A DNA stretch of 10,186 nucleotides from contig JAMORD010000062.1 of assembly GCA_027063755.1 (NCBI GenBank), forward strand, positions 1 to 10,186, written 5' to 3'. The DNA is from a bacterium (GTDB lineage Bacteria; Coprothermobacterota; Coprothermobacteria; Coprothermobacterales; JAADFF01). This document shows, in pieces, positions 160 to 10,186 of the stretch. The notes under the pieces are model-generated. The model made no database searches and had not been told where the DNA came from. It saw only the letters and a list, made by a program, of their open reading frames with translations. The position numbers were made by a program, and so were the translations under genes. How positions within the stretch are numbered: the first letter of the stretch is position 1; the number at the start of each line of letters is the position of its first letter.

Positions 160-187
160 AAAAGGACAGGGAGTTCCCTGTCCTTTT
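160..187. terminator. Bidirectional intrinsic terminator
   Basis: A 12-bp perfect stem (160-171 with 176-187; AAAAGGACAGGG against its complement) closes a 4-base loop AGTT. The A-run and T-run flanks give a U-tract in both directions. It sits 8 bases after the stop of the partial plus-strand gene and overlaps the TAA (188-186) of the minus-strand lipoprotein, so it serves both convergent genes. Confidence 0.88.
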
Positions 188-1076
188 AATGGTATAAGAT
201 GTAAAATCCGTTATTCTTTATGCTGTCTACTTGTTTGCCGTCTATCTGTAGGCTATTATCCTTGATAGTAATGTGGTATGTACCAATTTGTATTGTTGGA
301 TCAGGTTGATTGTTATTTAGGGTTTGAATACTGAAGCTGGTATGGGAGATATCTGGCACAACAAAAATCTTTTTCTTTTCATCTTGGCAAAGTAGGTAAT
401 GAGATGGTGATAGATATGTGGAGGAGCATGATACAAAACAACTAACGGTGGCTGTTTTCATAACTTGGTTATCAGTAATGTTATATAGTTGGACTACTGT
501 TTGAGGGGTGTTTCCCCTCATAGAGCTGTATCCCCATATTAGATATAGTTTGTCTTGTTTTTTAAATCCCGTCAATATGAAAGGGGGATTTTCATCGGCA
601 TTCCATGGTATATGAATCTCCATTATTTTTTTGTTGCCGAGGTATATTTCACCGCCGTTATAGTCATATGCGACTATGTAACCGCCATATATAGGGGCTA
701 TGCCTGAGCCAATGGATGGTGAAGGGAAGTATGGTAAAGTAGATGCATAAATAATGTCTGAATCATTGATATGGTATTTACTATCTGGGGGAAGATATAC
801 ATATATTTTTTTGTTAGTATATGAGAACGACTGAGGAACCAAATTATTATTTATCACGGTAGCTGTCATGACGGTTTGTTCTGATAGTTGTGTGCCGTCA
901 AAGTAAAGAGCTTTTAGGTTGTATATAGTGTATAGTTTGTTGTCATTAGTAGTTGTTATGCCTAGTACCTTTAGTCCTATGAATATTTTCTTGCTTGGGG
1001 ATTGACCGCATCCCACAAATATCGTTATTATTAGTATGAATACTGTAATTATCAACAAATGTTTTTTTTCTTTCAT
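186..1076 (-). CDS. Predicted lipoprotein, 296 aa, function unknown
   Basis: The protein starts at ATG 1076-1074, nine bases after the binding site AAAGGAGGG (1094-1086). A basic N-terminus (MKEKK) leads into a hydrophobic segment and a lipobox-like IFVGC with the lipidated Cys at residue 23, although Phe at -3 is unusual. The mature protein would be anchored to the outer face of the cytoplasmic membrane. The rest is rich in Tyr, Asn, Ile and short beta-strand-like units such as KLYTIYNL, KIYVYLPP and KLYLIWGY, which suggest a beta-propeller or beta-sandwich; this is inference only. Two cysteines lie close together in VSCFVSCSS. The gene lies 62 bases downstream of the amidase-domain gene with no clear promoter between them, so they may be co-transcribed. 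The mature N-terminus CGQS is shared with the second lipoprotein of this window. It is low in G+C. No family is recognised. Confidence 0.82.
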   Translation of the reverse strand: MKEKKHLLIITVFILIITIFVGCGQSPSKKIFIGLKVLGITTTNDNKLYTIYNLKALYFDGTQLSEQTVMTATVINNNLVPQSFSYTNKKIYVYLPPDSKYHINDSDIIYASTLPYFPSPSIGSGIAPIYGGYIVAYDYNGGEIYLGNKKIMEIHIPWNADENPPFILTGFKKQDKLYLIWGYSSMRGNTPQTVVQLYNITDNQVMKTATVSCFVSCSSTYLSPSHYLLCQDEKKKIFVVPDISHTSFSIQTLNNNQPDPTIQIGTYHITIKDNSLQIDGKQVDSIKNNGFYILYH

Positions 1077-1105
1077 GCTCTTCTTCCCTCCTTTTTTAGA
1101 TTAGA

Positions 1106-1125
1106 CGAGGATGAGGAGAGAAGGA
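1106..1125. repeat. Inverted repeat, left copy (between amidase and lipoprotein genes)
   Basis: The plus strand carries CGAGGATGAGGA (1106-1117), then G and AGAAGGA to 1125. The reverse complement occurs at 2177-2195, identical over 12 bases and then, after one extra base here, over 7 more. On the minus-strand transcript this copy lies 13 bases after the amidase stop and 11 bases before the lipoprotein ribosome binding site. Confidence 0.6.
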
Positions 1126-1138
1126 TTCTTATTTAGTG

Positions 1139-1540
1139 TTAATGAACATCAAAAACATTCCATTGCCCAATGTAGGTAAGCATGTGTTTTCTGTCACTAG
1201 TATGGGAGTCAATATAAATATAGCTTCCTGATACACCTGCTATAACACCTACATGAGCATAACTTTTGTAAGATGCTATATCTCCTGCGACTGGATTGTA
1301 GGTGTATTGAATGTGGTTTGTACTGAACAAGTATTCTATAAGTCCATTGACGTTTACCCATGCATAGGAATATGGATACCACCTATAGTCTGTTGTTAGT
1401 CCTCCCGCATGTAATGCCTGTGATACAAAATTTGCACAATCATTGCAATAGAAGTAGTTGTATGCATGGTTGTAATATGAGCTATCCATGTATGTTTGGG
1501 AATTGCACTTTTTCCAAGTATTGTTTGTATATCTATCTGC
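1139..1540 (-). other. Amidase_6-like / CHAP-like cysteine hydrolase domain, C-terminal part after the TAG
   Basis: Reading on after the TAG gives a compact papain-like hydrolase domain. The motif NDCANFVSQALHAGG carries the likely nucleophile Cys (residue 238 counted from ATG 2149). GDIASYKSYAHVGVIAG carries the likely general base His 299, and YIDSHTSDRK could supply the third polar residue. This order (Cys early, then GD, then HVGV) is typical of putative amidase and NlpC/P60-CHAP relatives that act on cell-wall peptide bonds. That role is inferred from family resemblance, and no substrate can be read from the sequence. The domain needs the upstream signal peptide to be exported. The longest ATG-initiated segment is 1489-1139 (116 aa), which would be cytoplasmic and lacks a ribosome binding site. 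Confidence 0.72.
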
Positions 1541-2149
1541 CTAAGATACAATGGCAGAGTGAGATACGTACCTGTTATTCATCTGTATTTGTTTTTTCTG
1601 CCATAGCCTATACTCTTTTAGAATTCTTGCTTTCCACATATCCTTAGTGATGACATAGTTTTTGAGTGGGAAGAGGACGATTGTGTTGAGAGGGTTGAAT
1701 CCCATTACCTTTACATTCTTGCCATCATTAACAATGGCGATACCAACGTCTATATCTTTAAAGGTCTGTCCGACAGAGGAATAGGCATCTATACCAGTTT
1801 TATTAGATAATTTCTTCATTTTATTTGTAAGGGTTTTAATAAATATAGAGAAGTTTTTGTCGTTTGCTTTTTCTGTCATTAGTTCCCTAAGTGCTTCTAT
1901 ACGGGTATCGTTGCCTACTTTGTAAGTGACAACAAACTCGTAGGTATAAACATCTTTACCTCCTATTTTGAAGTGATCTTTGTTCCATAGGTGATATCTC
2001 GCTATAGGATTGCCGACTTGGTCAAAGATTTGATAAAGTCCCTTTGTGGCAAGAGGTAAATATGGATCTTTGTTAGCATAGGTGGGAATAGAAAAGGAAC
2101 CACATAGCAGGATAGATATGATTGTTAATGTTAAAAGAAAACGCTTCAT
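1541..2149 (-). CDS. N-terminal part of the amidase-domain protein: signal peptide plus unknown domain, 202 aa
   Basis: Translation starts at ATG 2149-2147 after GGGAGGT (2163-2157), seven bases away. MKRFLLTLTIISILLCGSFS is a classical secretion signal with a probable signal peptidase I site after TYA (residue 25), so the product is exported. Residues 26 to about 185 form a mixed alpha/beta domain with no cysteine and a Lys-rich helix (KTLTNKMKKLSNKTG). Its family is not recognised. Many amidase_6 proteins carry an uncharacterised N-terminal domain of about this size, which is consistent with this being the first half of one protein rather than a separate gene. As the sequence stands, the product would stop at TAG 1541 and lack the enzyme domain. 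A promoter with an extended -10 lies at 2204-2212. Confidence 0.72.
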   Translation of the reverse strand: MKRFLLTLTIISILLCGSFSIPTYANKDPYLPLATKGLYQIFDQVGNPIARYHLWNKDHFKIGGKDVYTYEFVVTYKVGNDTRIEALRELMTEKANDKNFSIFIKTLTNKMKKLSNKTGIDAYSSVGQTFKDIDVGIAIVNDGKNVKVMGFNPLNTIVLFPLKNYVITKDMWKARILKEYRLWQKKQIQMNNRYVSHSAIVS

Positions 2150-2176
2150 TTGTTTTACCTCCCTTCTCTTAATATT

Positions 2177-2195
2177 TCCTTCTTCCTCATCCTCG
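2177..2195. repeat. Inverted repeat, right copy (5' leader of amidase transcript)
   Basis: The plus strand TCCTCATCCTCG (2184-2195) and the adjoining TCCTTCT (2177-2183) are the reverse complement of 1106-1125, with one base missing. It lies just after the predicted transcription start of the amidase gene and 13 bases before its ribosome binding site. The nascent 5' leader could therefore pair with the spacer after the amidase gene. Confidence 0.6.
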
Positions 2196-2203
2196 CCATA
2201 ATT

Positions 2204-2212
2204 ATTATAGCA
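2204..2212 (-). promoter_or_regulatory. Promoter (extended -10) for the amidase gene
   Basis: Read on the minus strand, 2212-2204 is TGCTATAAT, a consensus TATAAT with the TGn extension that can replace a good -35. No convincing -35 box is visible at 16-18 bases. The predicted start, near 2197, leaves a leader of about 48 bases before the ATG. Confidence 0.6.
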
Positions 2213-2878
2213 TTGATATATTAGTATTGTTTGAATTTAATAGTTGGAGAAATGCTTGTAAAGTTGGGAAAAACAGTATATATTGTGTAAAAACTATCAT
2301 TGGAATGGGAATGTATTATCAAATTGTGATTATCTGATACCTATTTTGTTATTGATACGATTTACAGTGGTGCTAGTGCTTTAGGTGGTAGAAAATAAAT
2401 GATGGCAAATGAGTTTTTTCGTGTTATGGGATTTAATATGAGTGCAAAGGGATGTGGACGATGTGGACATTTTATGGTATTTTATTGGAGATTTTTTTAA
2501 CAATCTAGGGGTTTTTTCTTTTTTTATTCACGATGCTGGTGTTGTGTAAATTAAGGTGAATTAAAATGGAAAAATAAAGGTCTGAATTTATTGATACAAT
2601 GGTATTCTTTTCTTGATAGTTTATCATGTAGAAGGTATGTGGCCTGCCTTTATTTTATCTGAGATACTTTTTATGCTGATAGTATATGTTGGTAATGGCT
2701 AAGATGGAGTTTTGTTATTGGATATTTGTTCCAATAAATAGGCTCGTCTATGTTCGTTTATTATGTGAAATGTATGCGGCTTCGTAGGTGATGATGTTAC
2801 TGTGGTAGGAAAGGATAGAGGTTAATTAGACAAGATTTTCCTCTCACTTATCGGAGGTATGCATTTGGACAGTAGTAG
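2213..2878. other. A+T-rich stretch without a convincing gene
   Basis: About 670 bases with stops in all frames. It contains a 9-bp tandem duplication GATGTGGAC (2451-2459 and 2460-2468), T-rich runs at 2491-2526, and an 8-bp hairpin TTATTGGA / TCCAATAA (2715-2722 with 2730-2737) that is too A+T-rich and lacks the T-tract of a normal terminator. One short open frame (2402-2500) is listed separately. I see no RNA gene, transposon end or further protein fragment. Confidence 0.5.
2402..2500 (+). CDS. Doubtful 32-codon open frame with a CGRCG motif
   Basis: ATG 2402-2404 to TAA 2498-2500 encodes a 32-residue peptide starting MANEFFRVMGF, with the cysteine pair in KGCGRCGHF created by the GATGTGGAC tandem duplication. 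The possible binding site (AGGTGG, near 2383) is about 13 bases upstream, too far to be good. No promoter is clear. It may be chance in A+T-rich DNA and is listed only because Cys pairs in small peptides can matter. Confidence 0.15.
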   Translation: MANEFFRVMGFNMSAKGCGRCGHFMVFYWRFF

Positions 2879-2983
2879 TTATTTCAAAAACAGATAAGGG
2901 GTTGATTGTCCTAGTCTATTGACAGTAAACATCAGTTGTGCGAATTTGTGAAAAGAACTGCTGCTAACGGCGACAGGTAAAAA
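2879..2983 (-). pseudogene. Out-of-frame continuation of the lipoprotein
   Basis: In the neighbouring frame, after the five-T run (2983-2979 on the minus strand), the translation reads LPVAVSSSSFHKFAQL and ends STPYLFLK at TAA 2881-2879. Joined after DPYL it gives a smooth 211-residue lipoprotein, whereas the in-frame ending TCRR is short and basic. I infer a one-base insertion in the homopolymer, or a sequencing error there. Slippage during expression is possible but less likely in so short a run. Confidence 0.5.
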
Positions 2984-3515
2984 GATATGGATCGGATATG
3001 TCTTGGGGATGAGACATAGGGTATGTGAGTGTGCCGACGAGGTATGTTCCTGTACCTGATACAGCATTGGGGCAAGATGTCACGGCGGATAAAGATTCTG
3101 GTATAGGAATGTAGTAATATATTGTGACAGTTGAGGAAAATTGCAAGGTATGTTTTATAAGTTTTCCAATAGGTGTTTTGCCGTCATATGGGTAGAACTG
3201 AGTGATAAGCGTTTTTATGGTTTCCGGTGTTTGACCTAGAGGAAATCCTGTGGAAGTTTTTTGCATTTTGACATAAGATATAATAACGGGATCCGGGTCT
3301 GATATCATGTCTAAATATCCTTTGAGGGCTTTTTCATTTTGAAGAATCTTAGGATCTGTTCCATGTAACAGAACGGTACGTATGTTTGAAAGATATGCTT
3401 GCAGTAGATGTTGTGTTTGCTGGAAATGCTCGGATACAGATTGACCACATGCAGCTAATAGTACTACCACACTAAGGACTATTATTAGTATCCTGTGCCT
3501 TATATATTTCCTCAT
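2964..3515 (-). CDS. Predicted lipoprotein, 183 aa as read (probably 211 aa)
   Basis: The start is ATG 3515-3513, with AAAGGGG (3532-3526) ten bases upstream. MRKYIRHR leads to a hydrophobic segment and a good lipobox LLAAC with lipidated Cys 23, giving a membrane-anchored outer-face protein whose mature end is CGQS, as in the lipoprotein at 186-1076. The body has a helical first part (HFQQTQHLLQAYLSNIRTVL) and a second part with beta-strand character (STVTIYYYIPIP, TGTYLVGTLTYPMS). As read it ends DPYLFTCRR at TAG 2966-2964. Deleting one base of the five-T run at 2983-2979 continues the protein to TAA 2879. The family is not recognised; a minus-strand -10 (TATAAT, 3551-3546) lies upstream. 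Confidence 0.75.
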   Translation of the reverse strand: MRKYIRHRILIIVLSVVVLLAACGQSVSEHFQQTQHLLQAYLSNIRTVLLHGTDPKILQNEKALKGYLDMISDPDPVIISYVKMQKTSTGFPLGQTPETIKTLITQFYPYDGKTPIGKLIKHTLQFSSTVTIYYYIPIPESLSAVTSCPNAVSGTGTYLVGTLTYPMSHPQDISDPYLFTCRR

Positions 3516-6826: not shown

Positions 6827-8836
6827 TTAATTATTTTTGGTTCTTGAGGATGTAGGAATTTCTTTGACGATAAAGAGATTGTTGAAAGGTTTGAAGGGAT
6901 AAACTTTGCAATAGTCCTGGGTATTGTCGTCTTTGCAATCTTTGACTGTGGCTGCTTCCAAAGTGTATGTTTTGCCTTTTAGATTTATGATTTTTGGTAT
7001 AGAAGCTAACTGCTTTTGAATCGATGATATATCAGATTCTGTTAACTGCAATTCCTTTAGAGATTTTTGAAAGTCTAAGCAGATGATATTATGAGCATTG
7101 TTTGATTTGGATAGGAAATCTTGATTAAGGCAAATTAAACCCTGTTTCGTAAGAAAGTACCCCTCATTATTAAATATGATTTCTTGCTTTTTGGGAAATT
7201 TTATTGCGGAAACTTGGGAAGTTAAGTTTTTGGAATAACGAGTATACAGATGGAGATTATATATTGTGTTAAGTGGGTTGTTTATGAGGAGGACATTTCT
7301 TTGGGAGAATAAAAGAGCTTTGGCATTAGAGACCGGAATTATTATTTGTTTTAGGTCTATACTTGTGATATTTGAGATATTGTTATCATACCTGAATATT
7401 AGAGTACACAATTTATTATTGTTTTTGTTTTTTAAATATATAATAAAAGAACTACCATTGGCCATGGTATCGTATTGATAGTAGTTGTCGATGTAGTTAT
7501 CGATTAATGGAGTACAATCTTTGATCTCAGTTTTTATATTTAGTATTCTTGGGGGAGGATATATTACTAGGTTGTATATCCCTCCAGATAGTTTTATTTG
7601 TATAGGAGATTTTATGACTACAAATTCTTTTCTATCCTCACTAAGGAAAAGGGTTCTTATATTTTCTGAGTGGGTGTTTGTTTTAATTTTTATGTTAATA
7701 GCGAAGAGACGTTGCGTATAGGATTTAAATAAATCATTTACTTCTGATGAATATGGCGTGTGGTTTTCAACTGGATTTGTGAATAATAATTGACTTAGAT
7801 ATAACACAGATAACACTATTAAAGTGTACGAGAATGTTACTAGAATAAATTCAAAGAAATAGGTATTGATATATTTGTATTCCATCTTATAAAAAATAAG
7901 ACTTCCCCCAATGAATGTTACTAATGCTGTCAGTAGATTTTTCCAAGTTATAGGGTAATTTATAGTGATCAAGATGAAATCCCATAAAAGAATAATAACA
8001 AAAATTTTGTCTAGAGACGTAACTAAAGGATTTGTTGGGGATGTTTTTCCTATAGGTGACATGCGTGCTATTATTGGAAATAACAATATGGTTATGGACA
8101 GTACTGAGGTTATAAACCACGGTGAAATGAAGTAATCGACTTTATAATTGTTAAATAACTTAAATATTAATTCAGGTATAAGTAAACCAATAAATAAACT
8201 AATCAAAACTGTGGAATTTTCATAAATCTCATATATGTGATGAAAGTCTTTCTCTATATTTATAGGTACAAATATCATGATTGCTATTGTTGGAATAACT
8301 AGCACTGCAAATAATATTAGTGATTTTACTGTTATATATACATGAAACGTATAAAAAATAAGAGAGGTAATAAATATTATAAAAAATATTATTGATTGGT
8401 TTGGGTGGAGGATGTTTAGCAAAATTGAAACTATTGGCATTATAAAGATTGAAGAGATCAACCATAAAAATATAAATTGAGGCAGAAAGATATCGGGGAT
8501 ATATTCTATAACAGCTAAATTTATATTTCCATATAATGAAATAATGGAACCTAAAGTTGATAGAGTTAGTAAGAGTAAATATGGGTATATCTTTATTAGT
8601 TTTTCTTGATCTTTACGGTTATACCATATTAACAACGATATATATAAAGATGATGCTGTATTGATAATACTCCAGATAAGAAGGAGGAAGTGAAAAGTTA
8701 AGTTAGATATTTGATACAATCGGTTAGATATTAGTATTAATTCTATGTTTGGAAGTGTTGTTGCAAGAACTACTCCAAATTGGAAGTTATGAATCTGTAA
8801 GGGCTTAGCTAACTTTATATATATATTGTTATTCAC
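6827..8836 (-). CDS. Large orphan membrane protein with C-terminal soluble domain, 669 aa
   Basis: The chosen start is GTG 8836-8834, nine bases after AAGGAGG (8852-8846), giving MNNNIYIKLAKPLQ; an upstream in-frame TTG at 8863 lies before that site and is rejected. Residues 20 to about 352 hold roughly eleven hydrophobic segments (for example HFLLLIWSIINTASSLYISL, YLLLLTLSTLGSIISLYG, FIFLWLISSIFIMPIVSILL, YTLIVLSVLYLSQLLF). Residues 353-669 are soluble, rich in Asn, Ile, Lys and beta-strand patterns, with scattered cysteines including a pair in VKDCKDDNTQDYC near the end. With an odd number of segments the tail could lie outside the cell, but topology is uncertain. The gene is very A+T-rich, unlike guaBA, and has no recognisable partner. 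No transporter, polymerase or glycosyltransferase signature was seen. I do not recognise the family. Confidence 0.82.
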   Translation of the reverse strand: MNNNIYIKLAKPLQIHNFQFGVVLATTLPNIELILISNRLYQISNLTFHFLLLIWSIINTASSLYISLLIWYNRKDQEKLIKIYPYLLLLTLSTLGSIISLYGNINLAVIEYIPDIFLPQFIFLWLISSIFIMPIVSILLNILHPNQSIIFFIIFITSLIFYTFHVYITVKSLILFAVLVIPTIAIMIFVPINIEKDFHHIYEIYENSTVLISLFIGLLIPELIFKLFNNYKVDYFISPWFITSVLSITILLFPIIARMSPIGKTSPTNPLVTSLDKIFVIILLWDFILITINYPITWKNLLTALVTFIGGSLIFYKMEYKYINTYFFEFILVTFSYTLIVLSVLYLSQLLFTNPVENHTPYSSEVNDLFKSYTQRLFAINIKIKTNTHSENIRTLFLSEDRKEFVVIKSPIQIKLSGGIYNLVIYPPPRILNIKTEIKDCTPLIDNYIDNYYQYDTMANGSSFIIYLKNKNNNKLCTLIFRYDNNISNITSIDLKQIIIPVSNAKALLFSQRNVLLINNPLNTIYNLHLYTRYSKNLTSQVSAIKFPKKQEIIFNNEGYFLTKQGLICLNQDFLSKSNNAHNIICLDFQKSLKELQLTESDISSIQKQLASIPKIINLKGKTYTLEAATVKDCKDDNTQDYCKVYPFKPFNNLFIVKEIPTSSRTKNN

Positions 8837-8845
8837 TTTAGTATT

Positions 8846-8852
8846 CCTCCTT
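8846..8852 (-). promoter_or_regulatory. Ribosome binding site that fixes the GTG start of the membrane protein
   Basis: The minus strand reads AAGGAGG at 8852-8846, nine bases before GTG 8836. It lies inside the longer open frame that begins at TTG 8863, so the TTG version is not the start. Confidence 0.85.
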
Positions 8853-8872
8853 GAATGTGTCAATTTGAGATT

Positions 8873-8878
8873 ATTATA
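8873..8878 (-). promoter_or_regulatory. Probable -10 box of the membrane-protein gene
   Basis: The minus strand reads TATAAT at 8878-8873. The -35 position lacks a consensus and falls within an inverted repeat (8879-8926), so activator or repressor control is possible. The start would be near 8866, with a leader of about 30 bases. Confidence 0.45.
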
Positions 8879-8926
8879 CTATGTGGGGGATGTGACAGTA
8901 GATGACTCCTATTCCCATCCCCATAG
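8879..8926. repeat. Imperfect inverted repeat over the -35 region, possible operator
   Basis: The left arm CTATGTGGGGGATG (8879-8892) and the right arm CATCCCCATAG (8916-8926) pair over 11 bases with a three-base bulge. They directly abut the -10 box of the membrane-protein gene. The arms are about 23 bases apart, which suits a regulator site or an RNA hairpin on divergent transcripts; no experiment or known motif supports a specific regulator. Confidence 0.35.
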
Positions 8927-9006
8927 TTGCCTATTTATAAAGAAGGTACCTATACATAAAAGTGTGAAAAAAGGGAAACACTATTAGGAGAGATAACCTG
9001 GGGTAA

Positions 9007-9207
9007 TGCGGCTATAGCTCTGGCACATCTACGTTTTCAGGTGAGGAGACTTTGGAACTCCACAAGTATCTTGCCAAGAAATATGACCTTTTCCTTGGCT
9101 ATACATTTGCTGCCAACATACTCGTTAGCCACAAGCTAAAGATGGAAAGCGACATTGTCTTTACCGTAGCCCCTGACGGTGGCGATAGGTATATAAGCAA
9201 GCTGTAG
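9007..9207 (+). pseudogene. C-terminal remnant of a PLP-dependent cysteine-synthase-like enzyme
   Basis: The frame from just after TAA 9004-9006 to TAG 9205-9207 reads as the last third of a fold-type II PLP enzyme. It contains FSGEETLELHKYLAKKYDLF (helix before the substrate loop), LGYTFAANILVSHKL (equivalent of the usual G-x-S-S/T-G-A-N loop), and DIVFTVAPDGGDRYISKL, matching the typical end D-x-V-x-V-x-P-D-G-G-x-R-Y-L-S-K. Cysteine synthase, diaminopropionate-synthase-like and related enzymes share this end. The catalytic Lys, pyridoxal-binding region and any start codon with a ribosome binding site are missing, and the upstream sequence is closed by stops. The loop residues SSG/STG are replaced by YTF. 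It is a degraded gene fragment, richer in G+C than the membrane gene beside it. Confidence 0.65.
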
Positions 9208-9520
9208 TTGTCACAAGGTTGAGGAGTAGGATATCCTATTGGGAAATTCACAGTATGATACCAGAAGGACTTGGTCCATACATCGTAAACAGTATAATCC
9301 TCCCTGTAAATGAGCGGGTAAAGGGAAAATTCGGGTAACAATCGGAAATTCCGGTGGTGTTATACAAACATTGCCTGTGGAAAATTGTATTCTATTTACA
9401 GGATACCATTCTTATAGCTAGATGGGATTAAAGCGAAGCACTTTTTCACAAGTGGCTTTGTTTGCCATGTAAATGTTTGATTGCATTCTTTAAGTAATGG
9501 GGTAAATCCCAGGGTAATTC
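9208..9520. other. Relic-like stretch with a 27-codon open piece
   Basis: There is no full gene. A plus-strand frame ending at TAA 9336-9338 is open back to the PLP fragment; from ATG 9255 it reads MIPEGLGPYIVNSIILPVNE and ends VKGKFG. It looks protein-like but has no ribosome binding site and no recognised family, so it is probably a second gene relic. A weak hairpin AAGCACTT / AAGTGGCTT (9436-9443 with 9450-9458) with a T-containing tail may be an old terminator. Confidence 0.35.
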
Positions 9521-9652
9521 ATGTGGTATAGCAGAATAAAGGGATGGATGAGGAGACACCTCTTTCTGCCCTTTCCCAGTCAACATGACCGAAAAAAGTT
9601 TTTTGCAGAGAATGTGGAGCTTCTTCGTTCCCCGACATTAGCTTTTGGCTGA
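9521..9652 (+). CDS. Doubtful 43-codon open frame
   Basis: ATG 9521 to TGA 9650-9652 encodes a basic, aromatic 43-residue peptide. It starts MWYSRIKGWMRRHLFLPF, then reads SQHDRKKFFAENVELL and ends SPTLAFG. The composition is protein-like, and the only ribosome binding site candidate (AGGG, 9511-9514) is weak. It lies in a relic zone and could be a fragment of a larger lost gene. No family is recognised. Confidence 0.22.
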   Translation: MWYSRIKGWMRRHLFLPFPSQHDRKKFFAENVELLRSPTLAFG

Positions 9653-9717
9653 GTGAGAAAGAGTGTGATAAAACAAAGACAACAAGTTTAATTATTATTA
9701 TATAAACAAACTTATTG

Positions 9718-9726
9718 TGGTAAAAT
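9718..9726 (+). promoter_or_regulatory. Candidate promoter of the peptide / radical SAM operon
   Basis: TGGTAAAAT (9718-9726) is an extended -10 preceded by a very A+T-rich stretch (9687-9716). No good -35 is seen (TTATAT at 9698-9703). A start near 9733 gives a leader of about 27 bases with the ribosome binding site in it. Short inverted arms AAGTTT / AAACTT (9684-9689, 9708-9713) flank the region. Confidence 0.4.
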
Positions 9727-9744
9727 ATAACCGCAAAAATTTGG

Positions 9745-9752
9745 AAAGGAGG
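9745..9752 (+). promoter_or_regulatory. Strong ribosome binding site for the small peptide gene
   Basis: AAAGGAGG is a near-perfect anti-16S match seven bases before ATG 9760. An ATG at 9754 in the same frame is one base away and too close. A site this strong supports real, probably high, translation of a 35-codon gene. Confidence 0.85.
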
Positions 9753-9759
9753 AATGTTT

Positions 9760-9867
9760 ATGGAACAGTTTACAGTAAAGAGTATAAAGGATAAGATTCT
9801 ATGCTCCTGTAGTGGTCACGACAACAATCCTTGGAAGGAAATTCTTGTAGATGAAGAAGAGGAATAG
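9760..9867 (+). CDS. Candidate RiPP precursor peptide, 35 aa
   Basis: ATG 9760 to TAG 9865 encodes a 35-residue peptide. A basic/polar N-terminal part (MEQFTVKSIKDKI) precedes a small core LCSCSGHDNNPWKEI and an acidic tail VDEEEE. Two cysteines (15 and 17) are separated by Ser, and Cys 17 to Asp 21 makes a C-x3-D spacing, the geometry joined by thioether bonds in some radical-SAM ranthipeptides. A Trp (25) next to Lys (26) is another possible modification site. There is no export signal or lipobox. The gene has an excellent ribosome binding site and overlaps by 17 bases the start of a radical SAM gene, so the two are probably translationally coupled. A substrate role is inferred from this pairing. 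I do not match it to a named precursor family. Alternatives are a leader peptide or a small regulatory protein. Confidence 0.65.
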   Translation: MEQFTVKSIKDKILCSCSGHDNNPWKEILVDEEEE

Positions 9868-10186
9868 GCAGATTATTTCACGTTCTTCAGGTCTGCTAAC
9901 AGGTTGTACTTTGTCTTTTCCCAGGTTTGGTTATCCTATAAATAAAGATTATTTATGCTACGATAGATGTGAAGATAATGTTGAGGCTATGGAGATCTTG
10001 TATTTGGAAAGTATGTATATAGAGCTTACTTATAAGTGCGATTTTGGGTGTGGTTTTTGTTATAACAAACTTGTATCGCCTCTTGAGATGCATTCGCAAG
10101 CTTTTCTTGATGCTGTAGAATTAGCAGAAAGGATGGATGTGCATACGATATTATTGACAGGGGGAGAGCCTTTGCTCTCCCCTTTA
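9851..10186 (+). CDS. Radical SAM protein, probable peptide maturase (5' part, runs off window)
   Basis: From ATG 9851 the visible 112 residues contain the radical SAM cluster motif CxxxCxxC as CDFGCGFCYN (Cys 63, 67, 70), which binds the 4Fe-4S cluster that cleaves S-adenosylmethionine. It is preceded by ESMYIELTYK and followed after about 30 residues by ILLTGGEPLLSP, where GGEP (104-107) is the SAM-binding motif. This spacing matches the PqqE/SPASM-type peptide-modifying branch. The first 60 residues carry extra cysteines (19, 36, 40) and could be a short precursor-binding or accessory segment. The start is inside the peptide gene with only a distant GGAAGG (9833-9838), consistent with coupled translation; ATG 9989 is an alternative. 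Whether a SPASM domain follows cannot be seen. The last bases form a strong hairpin in the coding sequence. Confidence 0.85.
   Translation, partial: MKKRNRQIISRSSGLLTGCTLSFPRFGYPINKDYLCYDRCEDNVEAMEILYLESMYIELTYKCDFGCGFCYNKLVSPLEMHSQAFLDAVELAERMDVHTILLTGGEPLLSPL
10161..10182 (+). terminator. Terminator-like hairpin inside the radical SAM frame at the window edge
   Basis: GGGGAGAGC (10161-10169) pairs perfectly with GCTCTCCCC (10174-10182) around the loop CTTT, followed by TTTA at the edge. It encodes the conserved TGGEPLLSP, so the stem may be a by-product of the motif. The bases after 10186 decide whether a T-tract follows. Confidence 0.35.

Follow-up and report, generated by a model that had tools for sequence, protein, structure and literature searches.

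Close to one end of a bacterial contig, a 35-codon open reading frame (ORF) overlaps the start of a gene for a radical-SAM protein. Do the two form a RiPP precursor/maturase pair, and if so, of what kind? The sequence analyzed (hereafter the window) is the entire contig C62, 10,186 bases long, from a 1.5-Mb draft genome of 251 contigs that is 88% complete. The features of the locus are listed in Table 1.

Table 1. Positions in the window of the small ORF, the adjoining radical-SAM gene and their motifs.
Feature	Position	Strand	Details	Basis
AAGGAGG ribosome-binding site	9746–9752	+	7-base spacer to ATG 9760	Sequence, motif scan, Markov chance
35-codon ORF, putative RiPP precursor	9760–9867	+	MEQFTVKSIKDKILCSCSGHDNNPWKEILVDEEEE; ATG 9760 to TAG 9867	Translation
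CSCSGHDNNPW stretch, presumed modified part	9802–9834	+	Residues 15–25; holds C17-x3-D21	Sequence
Overlap of 35-codon ORF with radical-SAM ORF	9851–9867	+	17 bases	Sequence
Radical-SAM protein, N-terminal 112 codons	9851–10186	+	ATG 9851, open at contig end	PF04055, E = 1.8e-7
CxxxCxxC cluster-binding motif, CDFGCGFC	10037–10060	+	Residues 63–70	Translation, alignment with relatives
GGEP motif, SAM binding	10160–10171	+	Residues 104–107	Translation, alignment with relatives

The Small ORF and Its Ribosome-Binding Site

The original prediction described a near-perfect ribosome-binding site, a 35-residue ORF overlapping a radical-SAM ORF by 17 bases, and CxxxCxxC and GGEP motifs in the enzyme, and all of its statements about the sequence itself proved correct (Table 1). 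An in-frame ATG at 9754, upstream of the ATG at 9760, lies too near the AAGGAGG site. The frequency of such an arrangement by chance was estimated from first-order Markov samples of positions 8864–9880, scored for a ribosome-binding site, 4–10 bases, an ATG and an ORF of at least 30 codons. With the 7-base AAGGAGG site the probability is 0.0027, and with any of three 5-base sites, in the same model, 0.065. Because the 7-base site plus ORF arises in only 0.27% of Markov samples, the predicted ORF at 9760–9867 is probably a gene.

It is distinctly improbable that the small ORF is a chance frame behind a chance ribosome-binding site, with the enzyme starting elsewhere, for example at ATG 9989. 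Such a reading would be consistent with the 6.5% chance obtained for the upstream region with a 5-base site, with a peptide that has no homolog in the genomes searched and with the uncertain start codon of the enzyme, but the low chance of a well-spaced 7-base site argues against it, as does the fact that the other ORFs of at least 30 codons behind AAGGAGG-type sites in the window are, in the motif scan, plausible real genes, chance cases inside guaA apart. The 17-base overlap suggests translational coupling, provided that ATG 9851 is the true enzyme start; other possible starts are ATG 9989 and ATG 10013.

The Radical-SAM Fragment

The enzyme frame ends at position 10,186 through the contig end, without a stop codon. 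The fragment matches Radical_SAM (PF04055) above the gathering score, so that a small ORF with its own ribosome-binding site lies directly beside a radical-SAM gene whose product carries CxxxCxxC. None of the NCBIfam models reaches its own cut-off on the 112-residue fragment: MoaA (26.5 bits) and the tungsten-oxidoreductase maturase (25.3 bits) head the list, and these two models, together with StsB, viperin and PqqE, all score 22–27 bits. PADLOC likewise gave weak viperin matches, none at cut-off. The level scores of the MoaA, tungsten-oxidoreductase maturase and viperin models with RiPP models count against a RiPP reading.

The missing half of the enzyme is absent from the contigs of the bin. 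Each of the 13 other radical-SAM matches in the bin starts at or near position 1 of the Radical_SAM model, so none of them is the missing half; both SPASM matches in the bin lie inside other, complete radical-SAM genes, and the terminal sequence of C62 occurs only once in the bin. Roughly 50 residues precede the radical-SAM core, too few to form an attached PqqD-type domain, so a leader-binding protein, if there is one, must be separate. The sole PqqD match of the genome is on contig C114, as part of another radical-SAM gene. That gene (L008, positions 753–2135; G000) has a product of 460 residues whose N-terminal part matches PqqD (PF05402, E = 4.8e-7), and sits after an ABC-2-type permease-like ORF and before an ABC transporter ATPase-like ORF. 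It is likely a second RiPP maturase of the same genome; no precursor was identified for it.

Relatives of the Enzyme and Their Neighbors

Genomes were searched with the enzyme nearest first, 98 and then 386 in number, and the best matches had E values of about 1e-7 to 1e-8. At the thresholds used there was no match in the genus-mate or in other genomes of the phylum, and back-translated patterns gave no confirmed close relative in genome or viral contigs. An alignment query run against genome contigs yielded at least 80 relatives, all distant. These were picked by a GGEP pattern, and the figures that follow describe a sample, among the matches listed. The nearest relatives among the matches listed share 32–51% identity over about 60 core residues, mostly in alignments with residues 50–111 of the fragment; for L048, an N-extended maturase-like relative, the alignment already begins at query residue 32.

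A PqqD-like ORF or domain is found in the locus at five of the 10 nearest relatives, 12 of the 40 nearest and two of the next 40 among the matches listed, although the count leans upward for these loci because the PqqD profile was built from seven neighbors (three confirmed as PF05402 by Pfam) of which four came from counted loci. At L046, L047, L051, and L059, small Cys-rich or Nif11 peptides are encoded upstream of the enzyme relative. In 398 Bacillota genomes two enzyme matches fell below 1e-6, L123 (the best) and L124. Besides the matching protein itself, the L123 operon encodes a PqqD-like protein, another radical-SAM protein and a ACCACTACTACSAC peptide. At positions 415–3010 of this Bacillota locus both radical-SAM proteins are radical-SAM/SPASM-like, and a peptide of 70 residues that ends in ACCACTACTACSACK is encoded along with the PqqD-like protein. 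The Bacillota relative L124 adjoins an aldehyde:ferredoxin-oxidoreductase-like gene and, judged by this context, is not a peptide maturase.

The nearest relatives among the matches listed, by their neighbors mostly RiPP maturases, support a peptide maturase in C62 without assigning it to a family. Could the radical-SAM protein nevertheless be an enzyme that does not act on the peptide, for example a cofactor-pathway enzyme or metalloenzyme maturase, the small ORF being translated as a leader or regulator to which translation of the enzyme gene is coupled? The models that top the NCBIfam list, the context of L124 and the overlap of the two ORFs, which is consistent with coupling, all fit, but this explanation is judged unlikely, if the strongest of the alternatives: most of the nearest relatives among the matches listed have RiPP-type neighbors, searches for terminators and Rfam elements gave nothing, and a leader ORF would not usually have a Trp and two Cys so close together in hydrophilic surroundings.

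Because the layout of small peptide and radical-SAM gene is real, and RiPP maturases predominate among the nearest sampled relatives, the best reading is that the peptide and the overlapping gene are a RiPP-type precursor/maturase pair, an orphan of a known kind, and this is considered moderately probable. The original prediction had taken the adjacency as the hallmark of a RiPP; the layout and the RiPP-type relatives bear it out, but the peptide was not found beside any homolog of the enzyme examined, the relatives all being distant. The context of L124, a peptide without a homolog in the genomes searched and the mere 60 or so core residues common to the relatives are further points against it, and up to the contig end neither a SPASM or leader-binding domain nor a transporter or protease is seen.

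If the two genes are a RiPP-type pair, the 35-residue peptide would be translated and serve as substrate, and the downstream overlapping gene would provide its radical-SAM maturase. The maturase would bind the N-terminal part of the peptide, perhaps via a separate leader-binding protein, and a 5′-deoxyadenosyl radical would then lead to a crosslink within the CSCSGHDNNPW region. The crosslink could be a thioether starting at C15 or C17, or else a carbon–carbon bond of Trp or His (H20-D-N22, W25-K-E27), and the sequence does not favor one of these candidates.

The Peptide

CSCSGHDNNPW is assigned as the putative core of the peptide. The segment that the original prediction called leader-like is a putative leader, and the peptide lacks a GG motif. 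A CxC is present in 5.7% of residue shuffles of the 35-residue peptide. There was no family match to the peptide in Pfam, NCBIfam, PHROGs or PADLOC, a PDB search gave nothing at a useful E-value, and no homolog was found in plasmids. Nor was there a credible homolog in 386 genomes (nine of its own phylum, including the genus-mate, and about 380 further bacteria) or in 398 Bacillota genomes, where the matches were weak.

Several candidates were set aside. Nitroreductase-like SGHNNQPW or GRNPW stretches (L026, E = 0.007; L028, E = 0.06) are at chance level as relatives of the peptide, and the idea of a nitroreductase remnant was dropped because chance alone should give one genome with a match of E = 0.007 when 386 are searched. 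The weak match at L027 falls in a frame antisense to an enoyl-CoA-hydratase-like gene, and one viral contig matching a degenerate precursor pattern has an unrelated, arginine-rich frame.

Comparison With Known Systems

The best-matching cores are those of PqqD-linked radical-SAM/SPASM RiPP loci (L044, L045, L050, L052, L061; L004, L024), which have a FELTYRCNxDCFFCYN plus LTGGEPLxHP signature. Identity to the C62 fragment is 34–45% over about 60 residues only, and the peptides are unrelated. In these loci PqqD is encoded next door, in some together with an HPr-kinase-like gene, whereas neither is visible on C62 up to the contig end.

Sactipeptide maturases (AlbA, StsB, SkfB) offer a second comparison. 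The StsB and SkfB models match the core weakly and AlbA is the best-scoring model on the relatives L046, L048, and L059, in each case far below cut-off; in the C62 enzyme, however, a leader-binding domain attached at the N-terminus would not fit, and the peptide is unmatched.

Ranthipeptide systems (PapA/PapB freyrasin, SCIFF/CteB, NxxcA) resemble the C62 pair in that a radical-SAM enzyme is encoded next to a small peptide with Cys residues, and the C62 peptide has one C-x3-D, but PapA has six such motifs and SCIFF carries six Cys among its 45 residues. The original prediction read the C-x3-D spacing as a sign of a Cys–Asp thioether. This part of it gained no support: a Cys17–Asp21 thioether is without statistical support, because 15.6% of residue shuffles of the peptide also give C-x3-D at least once. 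C-x3-D is the PapA motif and a single motif is accepted by PapB (PMC9413430), and C17-x3-D21 would be compatible with PapB chemistry. A PapB-like ranthipeptide system with one Cys17–Asp21 thioether is nonetheless very improbable, given the frequency of the motif in shuffles, the six such links in PapA and the weak match to the PapB model NF047865 (17.2 bits, where the cut-off is 340, though on the 112-residue fragment).

Triceptides (three-residue cyclophanes) are made by enzymes that target triplets (PMC11002830). The aromatic-x-x triplets W25-K-E27 and H20-D-N22 are possible targets and could form cyclophanes, candidates as unsupported as the Cys17–Asp21 thioether, but such triplets are common and the C62 pair has no family match.

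Genomic Setting

Does C62 belong to its bin? By tetranucleotide profile the gua genes correlate with 20 other contigs of the bin at r = 0.88, and the flanks around them are AT-rich and less typical of the bin (r = 0.66–0.77). Since the genus-mate genome has no guaA match at E ≤ 1e-50, C62 may be mis-binned.

On the plus strand upstream of the pair (9052–9207), a 51-codon ORF resembles the last 50 residues of cysteine synthase (PDB 3fca, 1o58; E about 1e-3). It is apparently the remnant of a decayed cysteine synthase gene, and decayed sequence is therefore present in the region. A minus-strand gene that adjoins guaA (6827–8863) is AT-rich; its product, of 678 residues, has hydrophobic segments at the N-terminus and matches no Pfam family. 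Farther off is a cluster of small minus-strand genes (186–3515), mostly without a Pfam match; two have lipoprotein-like starts (VGCGQS, LAACGQS), and 1139–1489 is Amidase_6/CHAP-like.

Significance

Orphan precursor/radical-SAM pairs are common in genome mining. Because of this, and because the enzyme is incomplete and a conserved family was not found, the C62 pair is a lead, not a discovery. That it represents a new radical-SAM RiPP family from a small, poorly sampled phylum, with a 35-residue precursor, a central CxC…HDNNPW core, an acidic C-terminal tail and possibly a novel bond, is a tentative and rather doubtful proposition. If the pair is real, radical-SAM RiPPs, already a large set, would gain a short, unassigned precursor, and its modification might turn out to be a new crosslink.
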